Positions 48,695 to 61,541 of a DNA stretch of 64,000 bases are shown in pieces; the stretch's first letter is position 1, and the number at the start of each line of letters is the position of its first letter. The translations under genes were made by a program, and so were the position numbers. Source of the DNA: Lentilactobacillus kribbianus (GTDB lineage: Bacteria; Bacillota; Bacilli; Lactobacillales; Lactobacillaceae); assembly GCF_013184075.1 (NCBI RefSeq), contig NZ_JABEQQ010000002.1, forward strand, positions 372,001 through 436,000, written 5' to 3'. Under the pieces are notes generated by a model. That model did not search any database. It saw only the letters and a program-made list of their open reading frames with translations, and was not told the origin of the DNA.

Positions 48695-49105
48695 ATGATA
48701 ACTCAAAAACGACGCTTTTTATATCAACCTAATCCTTTGGTTAGTGTTATTTGCTGGAGTTGGACGTTAGTGATCTTTTTAATTGGCGTAATTTTTTGGT
48801 TGGAAGTAACACATTTTCAATGGATTACGCTGTTTTTCTTTATTCTATTTGCTTTGGTAGTATGGGCAGAAATCCATTTTAGAACGATTACCATTCATAA
48901 TGGAATTATTACTGTTAGTCGAGTAATCAATCCCAAATCATTAGTTATTAAAACCGATAAAATTAGTGAAGTTAGTACTGATAATCACCAAATTGGTTTT
49001 GTTGCTAACGGCAAAATTTATCATTTTCTGGTTTCTAGAAATTCGGCAATCGAATTGGCTGAATTAATCGGTGAATCAGCTAATCAAGAAAAGAGTGATA
49101 ATTAA
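48695..49105 (+). CDS. ebsA: EbsA family membrane protein
   Basis: A 136-residue protein with two transmembrane helices (about residues 17-37 and 44-62) and a C-terminal soluble PH-like part ([29 protein letters not shown]). It matches the EbsA family, first named from the enterococcal ebs locus and common in lactobacilli. The function is not established; older annotations call it pore-forming. TTGGAG precedes the ATG and its stop overlaps the fhs start by one base. Confidence 0.78.
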
Positions 49106-50772
49106 TGAAAACAGACATTGAAATTTCACAAAGTACCGATATGTTACCCATTACTCAAATTGCTCAAAAACTAGGCTTATCTGATAGTCAATTTGAGCTT
49201 TATGGTAATTACAAGGCTAAAGTTAACACTAATTTTAATAATAACGAAATTAGTTCAGATGCGAAGCTAATTTTGGTAACATCAATTAATCCCACTAGAG
49301 CTGGTGAAGGTAAAACAACAGTCACTGTCGGTTTAGGTGACGCATTGCATCGGTTAAATCAATCGGTAGCCATTGCATTACGCGAACCATCATTAGGACC
49401 TGTGATGGGATTAAAAGGCGGAGCCACTGGTGGTGGTTATGCGCAAGTAGTCCCCATGGAAGATATTAACCTTCACTTTACTGGTGATTTTCATGCAATT
49501 ACAGAAACACATGATACTTTAGCAGCTTTAATTGACAACCATATTCAACACGGGAATCAACTAAATATTGACCCTAGAAGAATTGTTTGGAAACGTGTTT
49601 TAGATGTTAATGATCGTGAGTTACGCCAGACTATAGTAGGGCTAGGGGGAACTACCTCAGGAGAACCTCGTCAAGATGGCTTTGATATCACCGTAGCATC
49701 TGAAATTATGGCCATTTTATGTTTAGCTACTGATTTAGAAAATTTAAAAAATAAAATTAGCCAGATTATCGTGGCTTACACGTACGAAAACCAGCCAGTA
49801 ACCGTAGCCGATTTGGGTGTTCAAGGTGCCTTGGCAGTGTTGATGAAGGATGCCATTAAGCCTAATTTAGTACAAACATTAGAGCATACCCCCGCATTCA
49901 TTCATGGAGGTCCCTTTGCTAACATTGCCCATGGTTGCAATAGTCTGTTAGCCTTAAAAGCTGCAATGGCAACTGCTAAATACACCATTACCGAAGCTGG
50001 CTTTGGTTCAGATCTAGGTGGAGAAAAATTCATGGATATTTTAACACCTAAGTTAAATAAAAAACCTGATGCCGTGGTAGTGGTGGCCACCATTCGAGCT
50101 TTAAAACTAAATGGCGGTGATGATCCCACTAATTTAGCTACCGAAAATTTGGCTAGCTTAATGGCCGGTGCTGTTAATTTAAAACGACACGTTAATAATA
50201 TGAAACAATTTGGTCAACCAGTGGTAGTGGCAATTAATCGTTTTGATACAGATACTTTAGCAGAAATTAATTGGCTCAAACAATATGTTAATGAAACGTT
50301 AAAAACGCCGGTATCCGTTGTTAACTGTTTTGCTGATGGTGGGGCCGGCGCCATTGATTTGGCCCAACAAATCATTGAACTATCACAACAAGATTATCAA
50401 TCAGCAAATATTTATGTAGCAAATGATTCAATTGAGACCAAAATGAATCACATTGTTCAAAAAATTTATGGTGGTAATAAAGTTACCTTGACTGCTTCAG
50501 CTAAAAAGCAAATGAAACGAATTGAGCGACTGGGTTATGGTCAGTTACCAATTTGTATGGCCAAAACTCAATATTCATTTAGCGATAATGCTAAGCTTTT
50601 GGGAGCTCCTACTGATTTCGATATTAATGTCAAAGAACTGCAGTTAAAAGCTGGTGCGGGATTTATCGTGGCCATTACGGGCAATATTTTAACTATGCCT
50701 GGCTTACCAAGTCATCCAGCTGCTTTAGATATGGACATTAATAATCAGGGAACTATCACCGGCTTATTTTAG
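49105..50772 (+). CDS. fhs: Formate-tetrahydrofolate ligase
   Basis: ATP-dependent synthesis of 10-formyltetrahydrofolate from formate and tetrahydrofolate, 555 residues, the full family length. The nucleotide-binding loop is [40 protein letters not shown] is the strongly conserved substrate region; FAHG-like [20 protein letters not shown] and the C-terminal [15 protein letters not shown] are typical. It feeds C1 units into purine synthesis. It uses the cofactor family imported by FolT, encoded 9 kb downstream. Confidence 0.97.
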
Positions 50773-50782
50773 GAGTAATTAA

Positions 50783-51220
50783 ATGATATTATATTTTGTT
50801 TTGATATTAGTCTTAATAGGAATTGATCAGGGAATTAAGATGATGACCGTAGCCAATTTAAGTTTGGGCCAAGTAGTTAACATAATCCCCAATTGGTTCT
50901 CACTAACTAGGCTAAATAATTCTGGAGCAGCTTGGAGCATCTTAGAAGGTCAAAAATGGTTCTTTGTTTTAGTTGGTTTAATTGCAACCGGATTAATTAT
51001 CACCTTTATGTTTCATTACAAAGAAAAGAAAATGTATCTAATATCTTTATCATTAATTCTTGCCGGGACAATTGGCAATTTGATTGATCGAATTCATAAC
51101 GGATACGTGGTAGATATGTTTCAATTAGACTTTGTTAATTTTCCCATTTTTAATGGCGCCGATATCTTTTTAACCATTGGAATTATAATTCTCACAGTCT
51201 TAATTATTAAGGAAAAGTAG
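50783..51220 (+). CDS. lspA: Lipoprotein signal peptidase
   Basis: Aspartic membrane protease (signal peptidase II) that cuts the signal peptide of lipidated prolipoproteins, 145 residues with four membrane helices. Family boxes: IDQGIKMM, LTRLNNSGAAWSIL, AGTIGNLIDRIHNGYVVDMF (containing both catalytic Asp residues) and FPIFNGADIFLTIG. It is encoded immediately before an RluD-type gene, as in most firmicutes. AGGAGTAATT precedes the ATG. Confidence 0.96.
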   Translation: MILYFVLILVLIGIDQGIKMMTVANLSLGQVVNIIPNWFSLTRLNNSGAAWSILEGQKWFFVLVGLIATGLIITFMFHYKEKKMYLISLSLILAGTIGNLIDRIHNGYVVDMFQLDFVNFPIFNGADIFLTIGIIILTVLIIKEK

Positions 51221-52135
51221 GTGAGTTATTTGGCAACTAGGTATATCATAACTGATCAAATTGGGCGGTTAGATAAGGTAATTTCTGAACTAGATTCTAG
51301 CATTTCTAGATCACAGGCCAAAAAAATGATTGAAGACCAAGATATTACTTTAAATGATCAAGTGGTTCAACCCAAACAAAAAGTGAAAGCTAACGATATT
51401 ATCTTAATAGAAGATATTCAACCGGAAACTATTTCTGTGACACCAGAAAATATTTCCTTAGATATTATTTATGAGGACGAGGATGTGATTGTCGTCAACA
51501 AACCTCAAGGCATGGTGGTTCACCCTTCAGCTGGGCATCCCAATCATACCTTAGTGAACGCTTTGCTGTTTCATAGTCCATTATCTACCATTAATGGTAC
51601 GTATCGACCTGGAATTGTTCATCGAATTGATAAAGATACGTCTGGCTTATTAATGGTTGCTAAAAATGATCAAGCTCATCAATCCTTGTCAGCACAATTA
51701 AAGGCTAAGACCAATTTACGGAAATATATTGCTCTTGTTCATGGCCAAATTAAAGAAGATAACGGTACAATTGATGCACCATTAGGAAGATCGCCTAAAG
51801 ATCGAAAAAAACAAGCAGTTATTGCTGGTGGTAGAAATGCAGTAACTCATTTTAAGGTTTTAGAGAGATTTCAAAATTATACTTTAATTGAGTGTCAGTT
51901 AGAAACTGGGCGGACCCATCAAATTAGGGTTCATTTGAAGTATATTGGCCATCCATTAGTGGGCGATCCGTTGTATGGTCCGCGTAAAACCATCAAAGGA
52001 CACGGTCAGTTTTTACATGCAGCCGAATTAGGATTTAAGCACCCTCAATCTGGCAAGGAAATGTACTTTTCTGTGCCTGCACCAGATATTTTTCAAAAAA
52101 CATTGGCTCATTTACGACAAGATAAGCAAGGTTAG
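51221..52135 (+). CDS. rluD: RluD-type large-subunit pseudouridine synthase
   Basis: RluA/C/D family pseudouridine synthase of about 304 residues. The N-terminal S4 domain (RLDKVISELDSSISRSQAKKMI) is followed by the catalytic core with GIVHRIDKDTSGLLMVAKND, whose Asp is catalytic, and LETGRTHQIRVHLKYIGHPLVGDPLYG. The start is uncertain: GTG 51221 has AAGGA 7 bases upstream, while TTG 51230 has AGGTGA 5 bases upstream. The target uridines are probably those of RluD in 23S rRNA, by synteny. Confidence 0.92.
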   Translation: MSYLATRYIITDQIGRLDKVISELDSSISRSQAKKMIEDQDITLNDQVVQPKQKVKANDIILIEDIQPETISVTPENISLDIIYEDEDVIVVNKPQGMVVHPSAGHPNHTLVNALLFHSPLSTINGTYRPGIVHRIDKDTSGLLMVAKNDQAHQSLSAQLKAKTNLRKYIALVHGQIKEDNGTIDAPLGRSPKDRKKQAVIAGGRNAVTHFKVLERFQNYTLIECQLETGRTHQIRVHLKYIGHPLVGDPLYGPRKTIKGHGQFLHAAELGFKHPQSGKEMYFSVPAPDIFQKTLAHLRQDKQG

Positions 52136-52136
52136 C

Positions 52137-52161
52137 TTGACTTATTTTTAACATTTTCATA

Positions 52162-52165
<4 letters not shown>
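52137..52165 (+). promoter_or_regulatory. Promoter of the pyrR locus
   Basis: TTGACT (52137-52142), exactly 17 bases, TATTCT (52160-52165), just after the rluD stop. A perfect 14-base palindrome (52162-52175) covers the -10 and the probable start point. Confidence 0.65.
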
Positions 52166-52773
<608 letters not shown>

Positions 52774-52797: not shown

Positions 52798-53886
52798 ATG
52801 CCAACAACAAGATATCTTATTTTAGAAGATGGTACTAGCTATACAGGTCAAGCCTTCGGGTCTTTGGCAACTACTACTGGTGAAATAATTACCAATTCAA
52901 CAATGAACGGTTATCAAGAAATCATTACTAATCAAGTACATCACAACCAAATTATTGTTTTTACTCAACCATCTATTGGTAACACTGGCTTAGATCAAAA
53001 TGCATATGAATCAATTTTACCTTCAGCTAAAGGGGTAGTTGTTCGAGAGTATGAAAATCTAGCAACTGATCATTTAAAAAGAATTTCATTAGATCGTTAT
53101 TTAAAACAACATGGTATCCCTGGTATTTATGGTATTGATACGCGACAATTACGACACCATTTACAAAATCAAGGAACTATGAAAGCTAGTATTGTTGATG
53201 TTGATGATGAACATGCTTTTGACCAGCTTAGTGCCACGGTACTAACTAATCAACAAGTTGCCCAGGTGGCAACACCCAAGCCTTATCCTAATCCAGGTGA
53301 AGGTGATAATGTGATTGTCGTTGACTTTGGACTAAAACATGGTATCTTACGTGAATTATCTAAACGTAAATGTAACGTCACGGTTGTTCCTTGGGATACA
53401 TCTAGCGAACAAATTATGGATTTTGATCCAGACGGTGTTGTTTTATCAACTGGCCCAGGTTCTCCTAACAGCTTACCAGAATCGGTGTTACATATGATTA
53501 AAGCTATTGAATCTCAAGTACCATTAATGGCCATCGGACTGGGACATCAATTATTTGGTCTTGCCAATGGTGCCCGTATTTTACCTTTAGACGTAGAACA
53601 TCATGGTAGTAATCATCCTATAAAAGAAATTATCACTAACGAAATATTTTATGCTGATCAAGAACAAGGTTATGAAATTGACAAGAAATCAATTAATCAT
53701 AAGCAGCTATTAATTACTTATCTAGATGTTATGAATGGAACCATTCAGGGATTAAGACATCGTGATTTTCCAGCATTTTCAGTGGAATTTTTACCAGATG
53801 GCGCACCAGGTCCTAAAGATCGGGTCGACTTATTCGATGATTTCATAGAAATGATGGCGGTAAGGAGAAGAAATGACAATGGCTGA
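52798..53886 (+). CDS. CarA-like protein lacking the glutaminase nucleophile
   Basis: A full-length (362 aa) relative of the small subunit of carbamoyl phosphate synthase. The N-terminal CPSase_S domain is present (residues 1-150: YLILEDGTSYTGQAFG, GIPGIYGIDTRQLR). The C-terminal class I glutamine amidotransferase fold is also present (VIVVDFGLKHGILRELSKR, STGPGSP). However, the nucleophile motif C-LGHQ reads G-LGHQ (Gly247). The catalytic His is Leu332 in VEFLPDGAPGP, and the usual Glu is Asp334. It should not release ammonia from glutamine. The frame is intact and overlaps the next gene by 14 bases. It lies 24 bases after pyrR. Family membership is clear; present function is unknown. Confidence 0.88.
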   Translation: MPTTRYLILEDGTSYTGQAFGSLATTTGEIITNSTMNGYQEIITNQVHHNQIIVFTQPSIGNTGLDQNAYESILPSAKGVVVREYENLATDHLKRISLDRYLKQHGIPGIYGIDTRQLRHHLQNQGTMKASIVDVDDEHAFDQLSATVLTNQQVAQVATPKPYPNPGEGDNVIVVDFGLKHGILRELSKRKCNVTVVPWDTSSEQIMDFDPDGVVLSTGPGSPNSLPESVLHMIKAIESQVPLMAIGLGHQLFGLANGARILPLDVEHHGSNHPIKEIITNEIFYADQEQGYEIDKKSINHKQLLITYLDVMNGTIQGLRHRDFPAFSVEFLPDGAPGPKDRVDLFDDFIEMMAVRRRNDNG

Positions 53887-56395
53887 TAACTATAATAAGG
53901 TCTTAATCATTGGTGGCGGTCCCACCACTTTAGGTAGTGAAAATGAATTAGATGCAGCCGCCTTTGAAAAAGTAATCGCTTTTAAAAAAATGGGAACCAA
54001 GGTTCTTTACTTAGACAACAATCCATTTTCAGTTGTTGCTGATGAAATTCAGGCCGCTAATGTTTTTTTTCAAACAATTAACTTAGAAAACATTATTAAC
54101 ATCATTACCAAAGAACATCCTGATGCTATTTTATTTAGTGTGGCTGGATTATTAGGGCAAAAATTAGCATTACAATTATATCAATCTGGTATCTTAGAAA
54201 GTGAACACGTCGCTATTATTGGTAATAGCTTAACTACTTTTCAAACTGTAGCCGATAGTGATAGACTCAGACAATTATTAACTGATTGGAACGAACCAGT
54301 AATAGCATCAAGAACGGTAGCTTCTGATGACGATGCCGTAGAATTTGTTCGTGAAATTGGTTTTCCAGTTATCGTTAAACCTCTTTCAACTGATCACGAT
54401 ACTAGCCGCATTATTTGTTTTAATATGGATGATTTAGAGGCAGCCTTACAGTACAGTTTTGATCAAACTTACATTAAACGTTGTTCAATAGAGCAAAGTA
54501 TTGTTGGTTTTAAAGAAATTGAAATGGTGGGAATTAGAGATGTAGATGGTAATAAAATATTAGTTACTGGTTTGGAAAATATGGATCCAATTGGTATTCA
54601 TTCTGGTGATTCCATTATCTTTGCTCCCACTCAAACACTAATCAATGAAGAGTATCAACGTCTACGAACAGCAACTTTTAAAATCATGGATGCCTTAAAC
54701 ATTACTGGCAGTTGCCATATTCAATTTGCACAAAGTAGAACCGACTCAGATTACTTTGTAACAAAAATTAGTCCATATTTTACACGTAATACAGCATTGG
54801 CTACAAAAGCAACTGCATATCCCATAGCCTATGTGTCCACTTTTCTTGAAGTGGGGCATCCGTTAGCTGAAGTACGATTACCATCAAAATATAGTCATAT
54901 TAAACCTCTGTTGGAACCCACGCTAGATCATATTTTAGTGAAAATACCACTTTGGCCGTTTGAAGACATTCCTGACGCTGATCAGCATTTAGATACCGTG
55001 ATGAAATCAGTGGGGTCAACGATTGGAATCGGTAGAACCGTCGAGGAAGCTATTATTAAAGCCATGCACAGTTCGCAATTTTCACCACGAGATATTTTAC
55101 CCAGTGTTCAAAATATTGATGATGATGATGTAATTAATCAATTAATTCATCCGTTAGCTAGCCGAATTTTAATTCTAATTGAAGCTTTACGGCGTGGCTT
55201 TTCTATCGACGACTTGGCTGAACTAACTAAGATTGATCAGTTTTATTTTTATAAATTGAAACAACTTATTTTTGCACAAACATTTGTCCAAACTAATCCA
55301 CTGACAGCTGAATCTATCAAAATGGGGCATCAATATGGTTTTGGTGATGGTATGTTAGCCGAATTATGGAATACTAGTATTCAAACTGTCGAAAAATTGA
55401 ACCAAGATAATAATGTCCAAGTGACTTATAAAGAAGTAGAATCCAGTGCTGGTGAATTTATTGAGAACACTAATATTTTTTACAGTAGTTACGAACTAGA
55501 AAATGAAAGTCAGCCATTCGAAACCGATTCAGCATTAGTAATTGGGCGCGGTGGTAATCAGTTAGGGCCGAATGCGGCTGCAGACTACTATACGTCCCAA
55601 GTTCTAATACAATTGCATAAATCAGGCTATAAGACCATTGTGTTAAATAACAATCCTAATGCTGTATCTATGAGTCCACAATTAAGTGATAAACAATATA
55701 TTGAACCAATTCAACTTGGTAATATTTTAAATATTATTCGATTGGAGCGGCCTAAAGTAATCGTATTGCCGGGAAACCGTCACTATTTAGCTAAAAATCT
55801 TAAGCAAAGAGATGAACTAAATATCATAGTCCTACCACCAGATCAAAAGGACGCCCAGTTAATACGACCGGAGATTACTAATGCTGTTGACTATTTCATT
55901 GATGGCAATGTAATTCTTCCTATCACGACCATTTCCTATTCAGTAACAAGTTATAAGCGAAATCAACGTTATAATACTAATTACCAGCAACCCATGAACC
56001 AATTCACTCAATATGGACAAAAGCTGATTGCTGAGGGAAGAAAGCAGTTAACTGGTGGTCATTGGCAGGGATTAGTTCAAGTTTTATTTGAAGAGACCAC
56101 ACCAGGCAATTTTAAGTTTGCTGGCATTCGTCCCATTAGAATTACTGAAACCGCATTTTTAACTAAGGCAACTGGAATTAATTGGGTGAGGGTACTAGTC
56201 AAGAAGAATTTAGGTAATTTGGATTTAGTTAGATTAGCTGAATTATTAAGCCATACCGAGCCTAAACGTTTTGCGATTATGAACGGAATTTTTCCATTCG
56301 AAGCACTTCACGCCAGAAACCACCAAGGTTCAAGTAAGCAAGAGGTGGGAGCTAGTTTACAATTTAAAAATATTGATCAACAAAAAAAGGAATGA
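53873..56395 (+). CDS. Degenerate CarB-like protein (840 aa)
   Basis: A relative of the carbamoyl phosphate synthase large subunit, 840 instead of about 1060 residues. Residues 1-400 follow the first synthetase unit (KVLIIGGGPTTLG; GFKEIEMVGIRD; GIHSGDSIIFAPTQTL). The glycine-rich ATP loop is replaced (KPLSTDHDTSR, 169-179), and the metal and ATP ligands Glu, Asn and Arg of IEVNPR become Lys298, Ser300 and Tyr302. The oligomerisation region is kept (400-545). In the second unit only the leading Rossmann-like part (553-655) and a fragment of the ATP-grasp end (745-785) remain. The C-terminal regulatory MGS domain is missing. AAGGAG lies before ATG 53873. Catalysis of carbamoyl phosphate formation is not expected. 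Confidence 0.88.
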   Translation: MTMADNYNKVLIIGGGPTTLGSENELDAAAFEKVIAFKKMGTKVLYLDNNPFSVVADEIQAANVFFQTINLENIINIITKEHPDAILFSVAGLLGQKLALQLYQSGILESEHVAIIGNSLTTFQTVADSDRLRQLLTDWNEPVIASRTVASDDDAVEFVREIGFPVIVKPLSTDHDTSRIICFNMDDLEAALQYSFDQTYIKRCSIEQSIVGFKEIEMVGIRDVDGNKILVTGLENMDPIGIHSGDSIIFAPTQTLINEEYQRLRTATFKIMDALNITGSCHIQFAQSRTDSDYFVTKISPYFTRNTALATKATAYPIAYVSTFLEVGHPLAEVRLPSKYSHIKPLLEPTLDHILVKIPLWPFEDIPDADQHLDTVMKSVGSTIGIGRTVEEAIIKAMHSSQFSPRDILPSVQNIDDDDVINQLIHPLASRILILIEALRRGFSIDDLAELTKIDQFYFYKLKQLIFAQTFVQTNPLTAESIKMGHQYGFGDGMLAELWNTSIQTVEKLNQDNNVQVTYKEVESSAGEFIENTNIFYSSYELENESQPFETDSALVIGRGGNQLGPNAAADYYTSQVLIQLHKSGYKTIVLNNNPNAVSMSPQLSDKQYIEPIQLGNILNIIRLERPKVIVLPGNRHYLAKNLKQRDELNIIVLPPDQKDAQLIRPEITNAVDYFIDGNVILPITTISYSVTSYKRNQRYNTNYQQPMNQFTQYGQKLIAEGRKQLTGGHWQGLVQVLFEETTPGNFKFAGIRPIRITETAFLTKATGINWVRVLVKKNLGNLDLVRLAELLSHTEPKRFAIMNGIFPFEALHARNHQGSSKQEVGASLQFKNIDQQKKE

Positions 56396-56414
56396 TTACA
56401 ATCATTCCTTTTTT
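56382..56414. terminator. Bidirectional terminator between the CarB-like gene and rqcH
   Basis: AAAAAAGGAATGAT and ATCATTCCTTTTTT form a perfect hairpin with a 4-base loop. It overlaps the last codons of both converging genes. Confidence 0.88.
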
Positions 56415-58114
56415 AGTGTTTTGATTACATCAATATCTGGGTCTACTAATATTTGCGACTGTCCTTCATAAATAACAAATCCTGGTTTTGCCCCGTTAGG
56501 CTTTCGAATAGCCTTGACCTTAACATAGTCAACTGGAACTTTAGTACTATCACGTGCTTTAGAAAAATAGGCTGCTAAGATTGCAGCTTCTTGAATAGTT
56601 TGATCACTAGGGTCAAATGAACGAATAATAACATGAGAGCCCGGGATATCTTTCACGTGTAACCATGTATCTCGTTTATCAGCGGTATGCAAGGTCAGCT
56701 GTTCATTTTGTAAGTTATTTTTACCAACTAAAATTTCAGTTCCATCAGTAGCATTAAACATTTCCGGTTTATTAGCCTTATGACGACGCTTAGATTGTTT
56801 TTTATGTTGTTCGTGGTTCTTTAGATATCCTTGTTGTTCTAATTCATAACGGATTTCTTGAATATCCTCTGGGTTAGCCAATTCAATTTGAGCTTGAATA
56901 TTTTCAAAATAATTCACTTCGGTCTTGGTACTAGATATTTGTTCATTTAAATAGGTAATTGCATTTTTTAGTTTTTGATACTTTTTAAAGTATTTTTGCG
57001 CATTTTCGGATGGAGAAATTTGATTTGATAGAGCAATTTTTATCAATTGATTATTCTCATCATAAAAATTTGGTAATTCGATTTCTGTCATACCTCGTTT
57101 AACTTGATTGAGATAAGTGGTTAAAATTTCTCCCTTAATTCTAAAATTATCTGCTTTTTTGGTAGCTTCTAATTCTTTAGTTAACTTATTTAATTTAGTT
57201 TTATTTTTTTTAAGTTGATTTTTAACTACTTTAATTAATACATTGGCCTTTTCTCTTACACGATCCCGTTGCACTTGGTCATGATAGTATTGGTCCAATA
57301 AAACGCTTAAAGACGAATATTCAACGTTATTAAAAGTATCCGGATACGGAAAAGCAGTAAAATTATATTTGCTATTAGCAACTTCGCTAATAGTTGGCTT
57401 AGGATGGTTAAATCCATCAAAAAAAGTTTTATAATGTTGAATTAAATCACCAGGTTCGTGTAATTTAGTTGCTAATGCCAAAGATGTGTCTTTTCCCAAT
57501 CCTTGAATATTATGTTGTAATTCTTTAGCTAAAACATCTACATTAGGAAATTCACGAACTATTTTTGATAAAAAGTCTAAATCATCCGATTTGAATGGAT
57601 CGATAGAATTTTGTTTTGGTGGGTTAATATAAGTGGATCCAGGTAAAATTGTTCGATAACGATTAACATCATTACCTACTCGTTTAATCGAATCTATTAC
57701 TTTATTAGTTGCTTGGTCTACTAAAATAATATTACTATGACGGGCCATAATTTCGATAATTAAGATAAGCTCTTCTTGATCACCAATTTCATTTCTAGCC
57801 GTGAAATGAAATTTGAGTACTCGATCATTAGCCGGTTGGCTAATTTCTTTTAAAATCGAACCACTTAAATGTTTTCTCATAACCATTGTAAAGTTATTTG
57901 GTACGGCCGGATTTTTATATGGAATTTCAGTAATTTGAGTTCTAGCATAAGTGGGATTAGCTGATAAGAGAAGCTGGTGACTTTTACCGTGAGCTCTGAT
58001 TGTTAAAATCAATTCATTTGGGTATGGTTGGTTAATTTTACTAACTCGTCCCGTAGTCAAGGTATCATCTAGTTCGTTTCTGAGAGCATGGAGAAATGAT
58101 CCATCAAATGACAT
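56402..58114 (-). CDS. rqcH: RqcH, ribosome quality control factor (NFACT family)
   Basis: A 570-residue NFACT protein, formerly annotated as fibronectin-binding protein. RqcH recruits alanyl-tRNA to stalled 50S subunits and adds Ala tails. The NFACT-N domain starts SFDGSFLHALRNELDD. A long coiled coil spans about residues 285-420, and the NFACT-R domain lies near the C-terminus (DTWLHVKDIPGSHVIIR, AAYFSKARDSTKVPVDYVKVK). The gene stands alone on the minus strand, facing the CarB-like gene. Confidence 0.92.
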   Translation of the reverse strand: MSFDGSFLHALRNELDDTLTTGRVSKINQPYPNELILTIRAHGKSHQLLLSANPTYARTQITEIPYKNPAVPNNFTMVMRKHLSGSILKEISQPANDRVLKFHFTARNEIGDQEELILIIEIMARHSNIILVDQATNKVIDSIKRVGNDVNRYRTILPGSTYINPPKQNSIDPFKSDDLDFLSKIVREFPNVDVLAKELQHNIQGLGKDTSLALATKLHEPGDLIQHYKTFFDGFNHPKPTISEVANSKYNFTAFPYPDTFNNVEYSSLSVLLDQYYHDQVQRDRVREKANVLIKVVKNQLKKNKTKLNKLTKELEATKKADNFRIKGEILTTYLNQVKRGMTEIELPNFYDENNQLIKIALSNQISPSENAQKYFKKYQKLKNAITYLNEQISSTKTEVNYFENIQAQIELANPEDIQEIRYELEQQGYLKNHEQHKKQSKRRHKANKPEMFNATDGTEILVGKNNLQNEQLTLHTADKRDTWLHVKDIPGSHVIIRSFDPSDQTIQEAAILAAYFSKARDSTKVPVDYVKVKAIRKPNGAKPGFVIYEGQSQILVDPDIDVIKTLKKE

Positions 58115-60419: not shown

Positions 60420-61484
60420 TTACATTTTCTCTAAGCCATGTCGTTGTTCATCATCAACGATATGAGTGTACAATCCAGTTGCGGTAGTAGAATTTTGACC
60501 TAACTGAGTAGCCACTAATTGTTCATTTTTAGTAGCTAGATAAAGTTTGGATGCAAGCGTGTGTCGTAATTTATGTGGAGTGATTCGTACTTTGAATACC
60601 TCTGAATACTTAGCTACCATCTTTTCAATAGAATTAGCTTGCATTCTAGATGCTTGACCACGATAATTACTCAAAAATAAAGCATGCATATCTGCAGTAA
60701 CCTGATACAATTGTTCTCTATTGTTAACATATTTTTCAATATAGGGTAGTGTCCACGGCGCAATTGGAACTGTATCACGTTGGCCACCTTTTCTAATAAC
60801 ACTAATGGTGCCAGTTCTTAAATTCAAATCTCGTAAATCTGTATTAGCTGCTTCAGACACACGTAGACCACTGCCTAACAAAAGAGCATTAATAGCTAGA
60901 TCGCGCAATTTATCTCGTTTGAAATACTTTAGTTGTGCCGGTGAAAGTTGTTTTTCGTATCGCTCATCAATAAAAGCTAAATAGTCATGATCTGTAGTCC
61001 CCAACATTAATTTGGATTTTAAATTGGCAGCTCTGGTAGAGTAAGTCTCATTAGTACGCACTAGGGAAACTTTACGCATAACATTTCGATCAAAATAAGC
61101 CTCACCATTTTCATCTTCAGTATCTTCAGTTAAGTATTTAAATAATGACGATAATGCGTTTAATGATCGATTAATGGTAGGGTGAGAGCGACTATCTCTG
61201 CTTCCTTTTTGCTTAACTTGATTCAAGAGGGCCGATTTATATAATTCAACGGTTTCTTTTTTTAATTGAGCTAAAACATCTATATTTATATTAATAGGTG
61301 AGGTGGCATTAGTAAAACCTTCAGTAATTAACCAATCAAAAAAACGACGAAATTCAGTTAAATACTGATAAAGGGTTGCTGGTGAAAGGGGAATAACCGC
61401 TTTAGCTTGGTAATATTCTTGTACATACCATGGTAGTAGAGCTAGTTCTTTATCAATTAGTTTTAAATAACGTTGTTTTTCCAT
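60420..61484 (-). CDS. xerS: Tyrosine recombinase XerS
   Basis: A 354-residue tyrosine recombinase matching XerS, the single-protein chromosome dimer resolvase of streptococci and lactococci. The start YLKLIDKELALLPWYVQEYYQAKAVIPLSPATLYQYL is characteristic. Catalytic residues: Arg in LLGSGLRVSEAANTD, Lys in IRKGGQRD, HKLRH box (ITPHKLRHTLASKLY), LGQNSTTATGLYTHI with the Tyr nucleophile. ATG 61484 is chosen because GGAG lies just upstream; the frame stays open 19 codons further without such a site. A dif-like inverted repeat stands 86 bases upstream. Confidence 0.93.
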   Translation of the reverse strand: MEKQRYLKLIDKELALLPWYVQEYYQAKAVIPLSPATLYQYLTEFRRFFDWLITEGFTNATSPININIDVLAQLKKETVELYKSALLNQVKQKGSRDSRSHPTINRSLNALSSLFKYLTEDTEDENGEAYFDRNVMRKVSLVRTNETYSTRAANLKSKLMLGTTDHDYLAFIDERYEKQLSPAQLKYFKRDKLRDLAINALLLGSGLRVSEAANTDLRDLNLRTGTISVIRKGGQRDTVPIAPWTLPYIEKYVNNREQLYQVTADMHALFLSNYRGQASRMQANSIEKMVAKYSEVFKVRITPHKLRHTLASKLYLATKNEQLVATQLGQNSTTATGLYTHIVDDEQRHGLEKM

Positions 61485-61511
61485 TTTGATTCTCCAAACG
61501 TATGTTCTTTT

Positions 61512-61541
61512 ATCTAATTTTATCGTTTTAATTACTGTCAA
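61512..61541 (-). promoter_or_regulatory. Possible promoter of xerS
   Basis: On the minus strand TTGACA (complement of 61536-61541), 18 bases, TTAGAT (complement of 61512-61517), about 30 bases before the xerS start. The -35 is perfect; the -10 is weak. Confidence 0.45.

Follow-up and report, generated by a model that had tools for sequence, protein, structure and literature searches.

An apparently dead but conserved carbamoyl phosphate synthase pair in Lactobacillaceae

Two disabled subunits encoded downstream of pyrR

The window analysed here is a 64-kb stretch of Lentilactobacillus kribbianus DNA (contig NZ_JABEQQ010000002.1, positions 372,001 to 436,000), whose own numbering is used for the features below. 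It contains, downstream of pyrR, two genes resembling those of the small and large subunits of carbamoyl phosphate synthase (CPS), hereafter carA* and carB*. Judging from sequence, their products are very probably dead as enzymes, and conserved. An earlier note on this DNA had proposed a conserved pseudoenzyme complex derived from CPS. The proposal is supported as regards loss of catalytic residues and conservation: the same shortened pair occurs in 43 of 79 Lactobacillaceae genomes, spread over 21 genera, with ratios of non-synonymous to synonymous substitution rates (dN/dS) far below 1. The features on which the argument rests are the following.

52237..52773, + strand: pyrR, 178 aa (NCBIfam NF003548, 265.9 bits against a cut-off of 218)
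52798..53886, + strand: carA*, 362 aa, CPS small-chain and glutamine amidotransferase (GATase) domains, catalytic triad lost
53536..53538, + strand: codon of Gly247, where the catalytic Cys269 is expected
53873..56395, + strand: carB*, 840 aa, shortened and disabled CarB-like protein
54257..54871, + strand: first ATP-grasp, residues 129-333, disabled (PF02786 and residue reading)
54764..54778, + strand: K298-I-S300-P-Y302, replacing E299, N301 and R303 (alignment, letters re-read)
55139..55369, + strand: oligomerisation domain, residues 423-499 (PF02787)
56069..56251, + strand: residual C-terminal lobe of the second ATP-grasp, about residues 733-793, limits approximate (alignment, modelled strands and helices)

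The two genes overlap by 14 bp. In CarA*, Gly stands for Cys269 and Leu and Asp stand for His353 and Glu355, so that the Cys-His-Glu triad is absent; residue letters were read from the sequences, and catalytic roles and numbers are those that we take to apply. S47 and further glutamine-site positions are also altered, which makes glutamine improbable as a ligand. In CarB*, comparison with E. coli CarB gives R129 to S129, R169 to K169, G175/G176 to H/D, E299 to K298, N301 to S300 and R303 to Y302. The first site therefore has neither the Gly loop nor the Glu/Asn/Arg ligands of glutamine-dependent CPS, and E215, H243 and Q284 (Q285 in E. coli) are still present. The lost loop and ligands of the first site and the three retained residues had been listed in the earlier note, and the alignment confirms them residue by residue. 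The same agreement extends to domain architecture. A gap at E. coli positions 715, 721, 722, 754 and 761, found in CarB* and in 50 of 50 aligned relatives, corresponds to the deletion of most of the second ATP-grasp core that the note describes; E841, N843 and R848 of E. coli face G, R and T. Pfam recovers the pre-ATP-grasp domain in two stretches, one CPSase_L_D2 domain (129-333) and the oligomerisation domain (423-499), as expected from the note, and lists no MGS domain for CarB*, whose alignment to CarB stops short of it.

Common descent and a CPS fold are indicated by the trees described below and by structure matching of CarB*. The CarB* model, built from 25 sequences (pLDDT 83.9, pTM 0.87), is closest in the PDB to E. 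coli CPS (1c30_A, E 1.3e-70, TMq 0.86); for CarA*, the model is of lower confidence (pLDDT 78.2, pTM 0.54). CarB* falls below the curated NCBIfam CPS cut-offs (539.9 vs 1027; 531 vs 599) and CarA* exceeds them (413 vs 221; 348.5 vs 307.35). Automatic annotation and metabolic models can therefore credit auxotrophs with carbamoyl-phosphate synthesis on the strength of CarA*.

Residue losses across related pairs

Residues were compared in 235 pairs, reduced to 213 distinct ones when duplicate places were removed and to 212 when the E. coli pair was left out of the classes. Drawn from several searches, these include 77 distinct CarB* pairs and 6 of the ~800-aa type described below. Membership of the CarB* class was decided by length, so that the residue contrast does not follow from the selection; full-length dead pairs were picked by their residues, and their residue counts are thus not an independent test. 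E299 is replaced by Lys (68) or Arg (9) in all 77 CarB* pairs and is Glu in 109/109 other pairs. Similarly, Cys269 is Gly in 77/77 CarB* pairs and Cys in 105/109 others. Such consistent loss over 77 distinct pairs excludes chance or assembly error. R129 is found in 0/77 CarB* pairs, and R129, G175, G176, H243, Q285, E299, N301 and R303 are all present in 109/109 canonical or other pairs. Within the 77, D246 and S247 are invariably kept, followed by H243 (73), E215 (69) and Q285 (63); E215, D246 and S247 are retained in most dead forms. With E299 and R129 lost, this pattern argues that selection still acts on part of the first site, whose chemistry is gone.

At four loci (L184, L195, L202 and L214), a CarA with Gly269 lies beside an intact, full-length CarB. 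The dead class cannot, therefore, be recognised by the missing Cys alone. These CarA(Gly269)-CarB pairs are possible ammonia-dependent CPSs.

Distribution of the dead pairs

At E <=1e-50, the L. kribbianus CarB* query matches 384/397 Lactobacillaceae genomes, real and dead CarB being counted together. A CarB* profile was run on 79 of the family's genomes from 40 genera, and the remaining genomes were classed by reading the lspA-rluD...rqcH region. Genomes of the CarB* type and of the ~800-aa type were partly read residue by residue, G069 and G075 being the unread members of the latter. A dead CarAB pair is found in 66 of the 79, an intact pair in 10 (G011, G012, G025, G030, G031, G049, G050, G059, G062, G068) and none in one; two are unplaced. 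G163 has no CarA or CarB match and keeps PyrR, and the lspA-rluD...rqcH site was not located in G029 and G065. In G029, a canonical-type CarB appears to be split into frames of 853 and 207 aa (L101, 8989-12186).

The 66 dead pairs fall into four groups: the CarB* type, with open frames of 823-901 (43 genomes), the ~800-aa type (8 genomes in 3 genera), full-length pairs of 1051-1067 aa (12 genomes: G010, G014, G017, G021, G027, G033, G037, G040, G052, G058, G134, G242) and pairs with a shorter CarB (3 genomes: 643 aa in G022, 659 aa in G009, and at least 497 aa in G048, this being the part within the 4-kb stretch read). The CarA of G033 keeps the Cys and has lost the His. G021 and G058 (L242, L243) show a half-dead state, with a full-length CarB whose first-site residues are intact and only the second site lost, and a CarA with Gly269. 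Wherever examined (50/50 loci), CarA* lies directly 5' of CarB*. Among the matches listed, from 198 genomes of the order, 26 of them of the family, no full-profile CarB* match lies outside Lactobacillaceae, where one would outrank canonical CarB.

Degradation in this strain alone, which the earlier note gave as the case that would refute it, is ruled out by the sharing of the shortened pair among related genomes. That note recognised the shortened pair correctly and understated the extent of the system, since full-length dead forms, ~800-aa forms and Streptococcus-like forms of 577-579 aa also exist. The last are found in five genomes of genus g43, beside a CarA with Gly269; PyrB and PyrR of this genus resemble those of named Streptococcus (84%). 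One such locus (L135, 5288-9728, G399) reads pyrR-pyrB-carA(Gly269)-carB, with a 579-aa CarB and an intact aspartate transcarbamoylase (ATCase), and represents a separate shortened CPS pair outside Lactobacillaceae.

Selection and origin

When pairs saturated at synonymous sites are left out, dN/dS ranges from 0.009 to 0.045 over 19 CarA* pairs and from 0.011 to 0.054 over 9 CarB* pairs. The genes thus combine lost catalytic residues with purifying selection across species, as expected of a conserved pseudoenzyme.

In nine named Bacilli loci from outside the family (including Cytobacillus, Parageobacillus, Shouchella and Halolactibacillus), rluD, pyrR, canonical carAB and an rqcH-like gene follow one another in this order within one stretch. 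In ten Lactobacillaceae genomes, an intact pair follows rluD-pyrR, as part of a pyr operon that occupies the corresponding chromosomal position. The CarAB* position is therefore the pyr operon site of several other Bacilli, which argues that the pair descends from that operon.

In a CarA tree, the CarB* class forms one clade (28 rows, 100/100). In a tree of CarA and half of CarB, from which long rows were left out, full-length dead L094 stands beside the CarB* clade (98/99), the intact locus copy L100 coming next (94/64). All 26 dead pairs tried join in a wider tree (100/99). A smaller tree, also without long rows, places L094 and L276 among intact pairs; there, neither L276 with its congener's intact L278 (p-AU 0.52) nor L094 with three CarB* rows (p-AU 0.35) is rejected. 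A single origin of all dead pairs thus has the support of the fullest tree and is not settled, because mutual attraction of long rows is possible and the positions of L094 and L276 stay undecided in the smaller tree; conversion may have occurred once or several times.

Metabolic context

The L. kribbianus genome (99% complete) contains one CarB-like match only. The earlier note had called for a check for another, intact carAB, and no second CarB match was found. Searches of this genome gave no match to ATCase, ornithine transcarbamoylase (OTC) or dihydroorotase; no search was aimed at further enzymes that consume carbamoyl phosphate. The pair is kept there together with a uracil permease preceded by a PyrR element. 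It is thus very unlikely, on this gene content, that the pair serves carbamoyl-phosphate metabolism in L. kribbianus, and its supplying ATCase or OTC is ruled out for this genome. More widely, no ATCase/OTC-family match is found in 7/59 genomes (G000, G024, G041, G044, G048, G060, G131), all seven of which have a dead pair or a remnant. A canonical CarB is listed in 30/43 CarB* genomes and in none of the other 13, L. kribbianus included, although in G020, one of the 13, a further and weaker match exists outside the listing. Twelve of the 13 were searched for ATCase: nine have none over the cut-off, and G028, G094 and G177 have one, each together with an OTC-like match as a potential source of carbamoyl phosphate.

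Association with PyrR

The PyrR encoded in the window reaches its family score, has the phosphoribosyl pyrophosphate (PRPP) loop and is the only PyrR match in its genome. pyrR lies 5' of the pair in 17/20 long-flank loci. It is beside the pair in 38/43 CarB* genomes, as the sole PyrR match in 34 of the 38. PyrR elements occur directly 5' of the pyrR/pair operon in G044 and G010; in G010, the order is pyrR-permease-carA*-carB*, the permease being assigned by likeness. Permease-like open reading frames (ORFs) are also preceded by PyrR elements in G000, G013, G024, G044, G051 and G332 (by likeness, the family being confirmed for G000 only).

Several other observations concern PyrR. At L248 (G009, genus g10), a PyrR without the PRPP loop still stands beside the dead pair, all three genes looking non-catalytic. 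A PhnD-like ABC transporter operon, which would not be expected as a PyrR target, is preceded by a PyrR element at two loci (L223, 2947-4191, G000 C1; L234, G051), and further elements lie near an ORF resembling nucleoside deoxyribosyltransferase (L235, G051; L230, G015).

In genus g38, PyrR occurs twice, within the pyr operon and beside CarAB*, the two proteins being 65% identical in G332. On the G332 chromosome, the CarAB* locus lies at 0.51, the pyr operon at 0.75 and a third carAB at 0.15. L. plantarum resembles this genus in having a PyrR2 besides the PyrR1 of its pyr operon, and deletion of its pyrR2 reportedly leads to a high-CO2 requirement. In published work, lp_1782 is given as pyrR2 and lp_2704 as pyrR1, lp_0526 also being named (PMC7911632), and PyrR2 is cited as responsive to inorganic carbon (PMC3582564). 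The G332 map positions roughly fit these three locus numbers, on a total of L. plantarum locus numbers that we assume. The two-PyrR pattern and the map position suggest that lp_1782 may be followed by a dead pair; no L. plantarum is among the named loci listed in the scan (at least 80 loci), and this link therefore stays conditional. If it is true, the dead CPS would be a natural candidate for a carbon sensor.

Possible functions of the pair

Because the genes overlap and were always together in the loci read, CarA* and CarB* probably form a heterodimer. A regulatory role linked to PyrR or to pyrimidines is plausible, at somewhat less than even chances. The reading that we tentatively favour is a pseudo-CPS, in which this non-catalytic heterodimer would most likely bind a ligand and act as a partner in pyrimidine supply linked to PyrR. 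The carAB of an ancestral Bacilli pyr operon would have lost catalysis and been kept as a folded CarA/CarB-like pair. The two proteins would still form one complex and could bind a small ligand, either a nucleotide or, in the Lys-substituted first site, bicarbonate or another anion. The complex might then modulate PyrR or PyrR-controlled uracil uptake. A bolder version, rather unlikely in its entirety, is that the CPS of lactic acid bacteria has a concealed role beyond catalysis: once catalysis could be dispensed with, only carAB among the pyr genes would have been retained at the former operon site and stripped of its activities, perhaps repeatedly, giving a family-wide pseudo-CPS that acts as a PyrR-coupled bicarbonate or nucleotide sensor behind the inorganic-carbon response of PyrR2.

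It should be noted that several observations weigh against a PyrR-linked pseudo-CPS. No PyrR element was found in the pyrR leader of the window. A dead pair without any PyrR match is found in G242 (99% complete) and G017 (87%), and PyrR is away from the pair in 5/43 CarB* genomes (G002, G042, G005, G045, G177). The pair-adjacent PyrR looks ordinary, with weak residue differences and no strong discriminating ones. In G163, PyrR is kept without CarA or CarB, and the pair is therefore dispensable there. The separation from PyrR would suit a PyrR-independent scaffold or assembly partner, holding or stabilising another enzyme or complex, as the inactive dihydroorotase does for some bacterial ATCases (PMC6022934). 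This alternative is somewhat less likely than the favoured reading: the L. kribbianus genome shows neither ATCase nor canonical CPS as a partner, and adjacency to pyrR in 38/43 genomes would be explained only by inherited order.

A changed or residual enzyme, performing another ATP-grasp reaction or one CPS step with ammonia, is improbable. The retention of E215, D246, S247 and mostly H243 would agree with it, as would the first-site residues kept in G021 and G058, the four Gly269 CarAs beside an intact CarB, as expected of ammonia users, and the ATCase of G028, G094 and G177, where no canonical CarB is listed. Nevertheless, E299 is Lys or Arg and R129 is lost in all 77 CarB* pairs, the second site is gone, the OTC-like match could provide carbamoyl phosphate in the three genomes, and L. 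kribbianus has no ATCase/OTC-family match at all. That the pair only regulates canonical CPS, or is its dominant partner, is very improbable. The 30 genomes with both would permit it, but the 13 with no canonical CarB listed rule it out as a general role, the frames of the pair being intact in those 13. Finally, decay as a pseudogene pair is hardly credible. In its favour, the pair is what is left of an operon that has disappeared, and G163 no longer has it. Against it, the frames stay open across 21 genera and dN/dS does not exceed 0.054, which rules decay out.

Relation to known systems

The pair shares with glutamine-dependent CPS (CarAB/PyrAA-PyrAB) its fold, first-half domain order, gene order and ancestral site, and differs in having no Cys nucleophile, a disabled first ATP site and neither second ATP-grasp core nor MGS domain. 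In CPS I and ammonia-dependent CPSs, the amidotransferase domain is also without the Cys and both ATP sites are kept. CarB* does not have the intact large-subunit ATP sites of such enzymes: both are disabled. The inactive dihydroorotase (same source) likewise belongs to the pyrimidine pathway and survives without activity as a protein partner, but it is a different enzyme, and its partner ATCase is absent from the L. kribbianus genome. No description of the pair was found in the literature outside subscription papers, nor in the accessible parts of PMC3582564, PMC10609543, PMC9963975, PMC7911632, PMC6022934 and PMC6299155.

In a family of bacteria found in food and the gut, an ancient central enzyme complex thus appears to live on as a conserved pair that is catalytically dead. 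Intact, full-length dead and shortened forms provide a natural series for the change from enzyme to pseudoenzyme, and the pair offers a candidate, open to testing, for the reported connection of PyrR2 with CO2/bicarbonate.

Surroundings of the pair in the window

The order on the + strand is fhs-lspA-rluD-pyrR-carA*-carB*, and an rqcH/fbpA-like gene converges from the - strand. The names lspA, rluD and rqcH/fbpA, like fhs, are those that we presume to apply.

49105..50772, + strand: fhs-like gene, presumably formate-tetrahydrofolate ligase; upstream anchor, also upstream in several related loci
50783..51220, + strand: lspA-like gene, upstream anchor (ORF and related loci)
51221..52135, + strand: rluD-like gene, upstream anchor, also in 20/20 long-flank related loci
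52137..52165, + strand: weak promoter-like site 5' of pyrR (13 such sites in the region vs 18.8 expected by chance)
52183..52205, + strand: terminator-like hairpin in the pyrR leader
56383..56414, + strand: terminator-like hairpin at the boundary of carB* and the convergent gene
56402..58114, - strand: rqcH/fbpA-like gene, downstream anchor, downstream in 13/20 long-flank related loci

Further downstream, an ORF with a TTG start at 60420-61541 on the - strand resembles a tyrosine recombinase.

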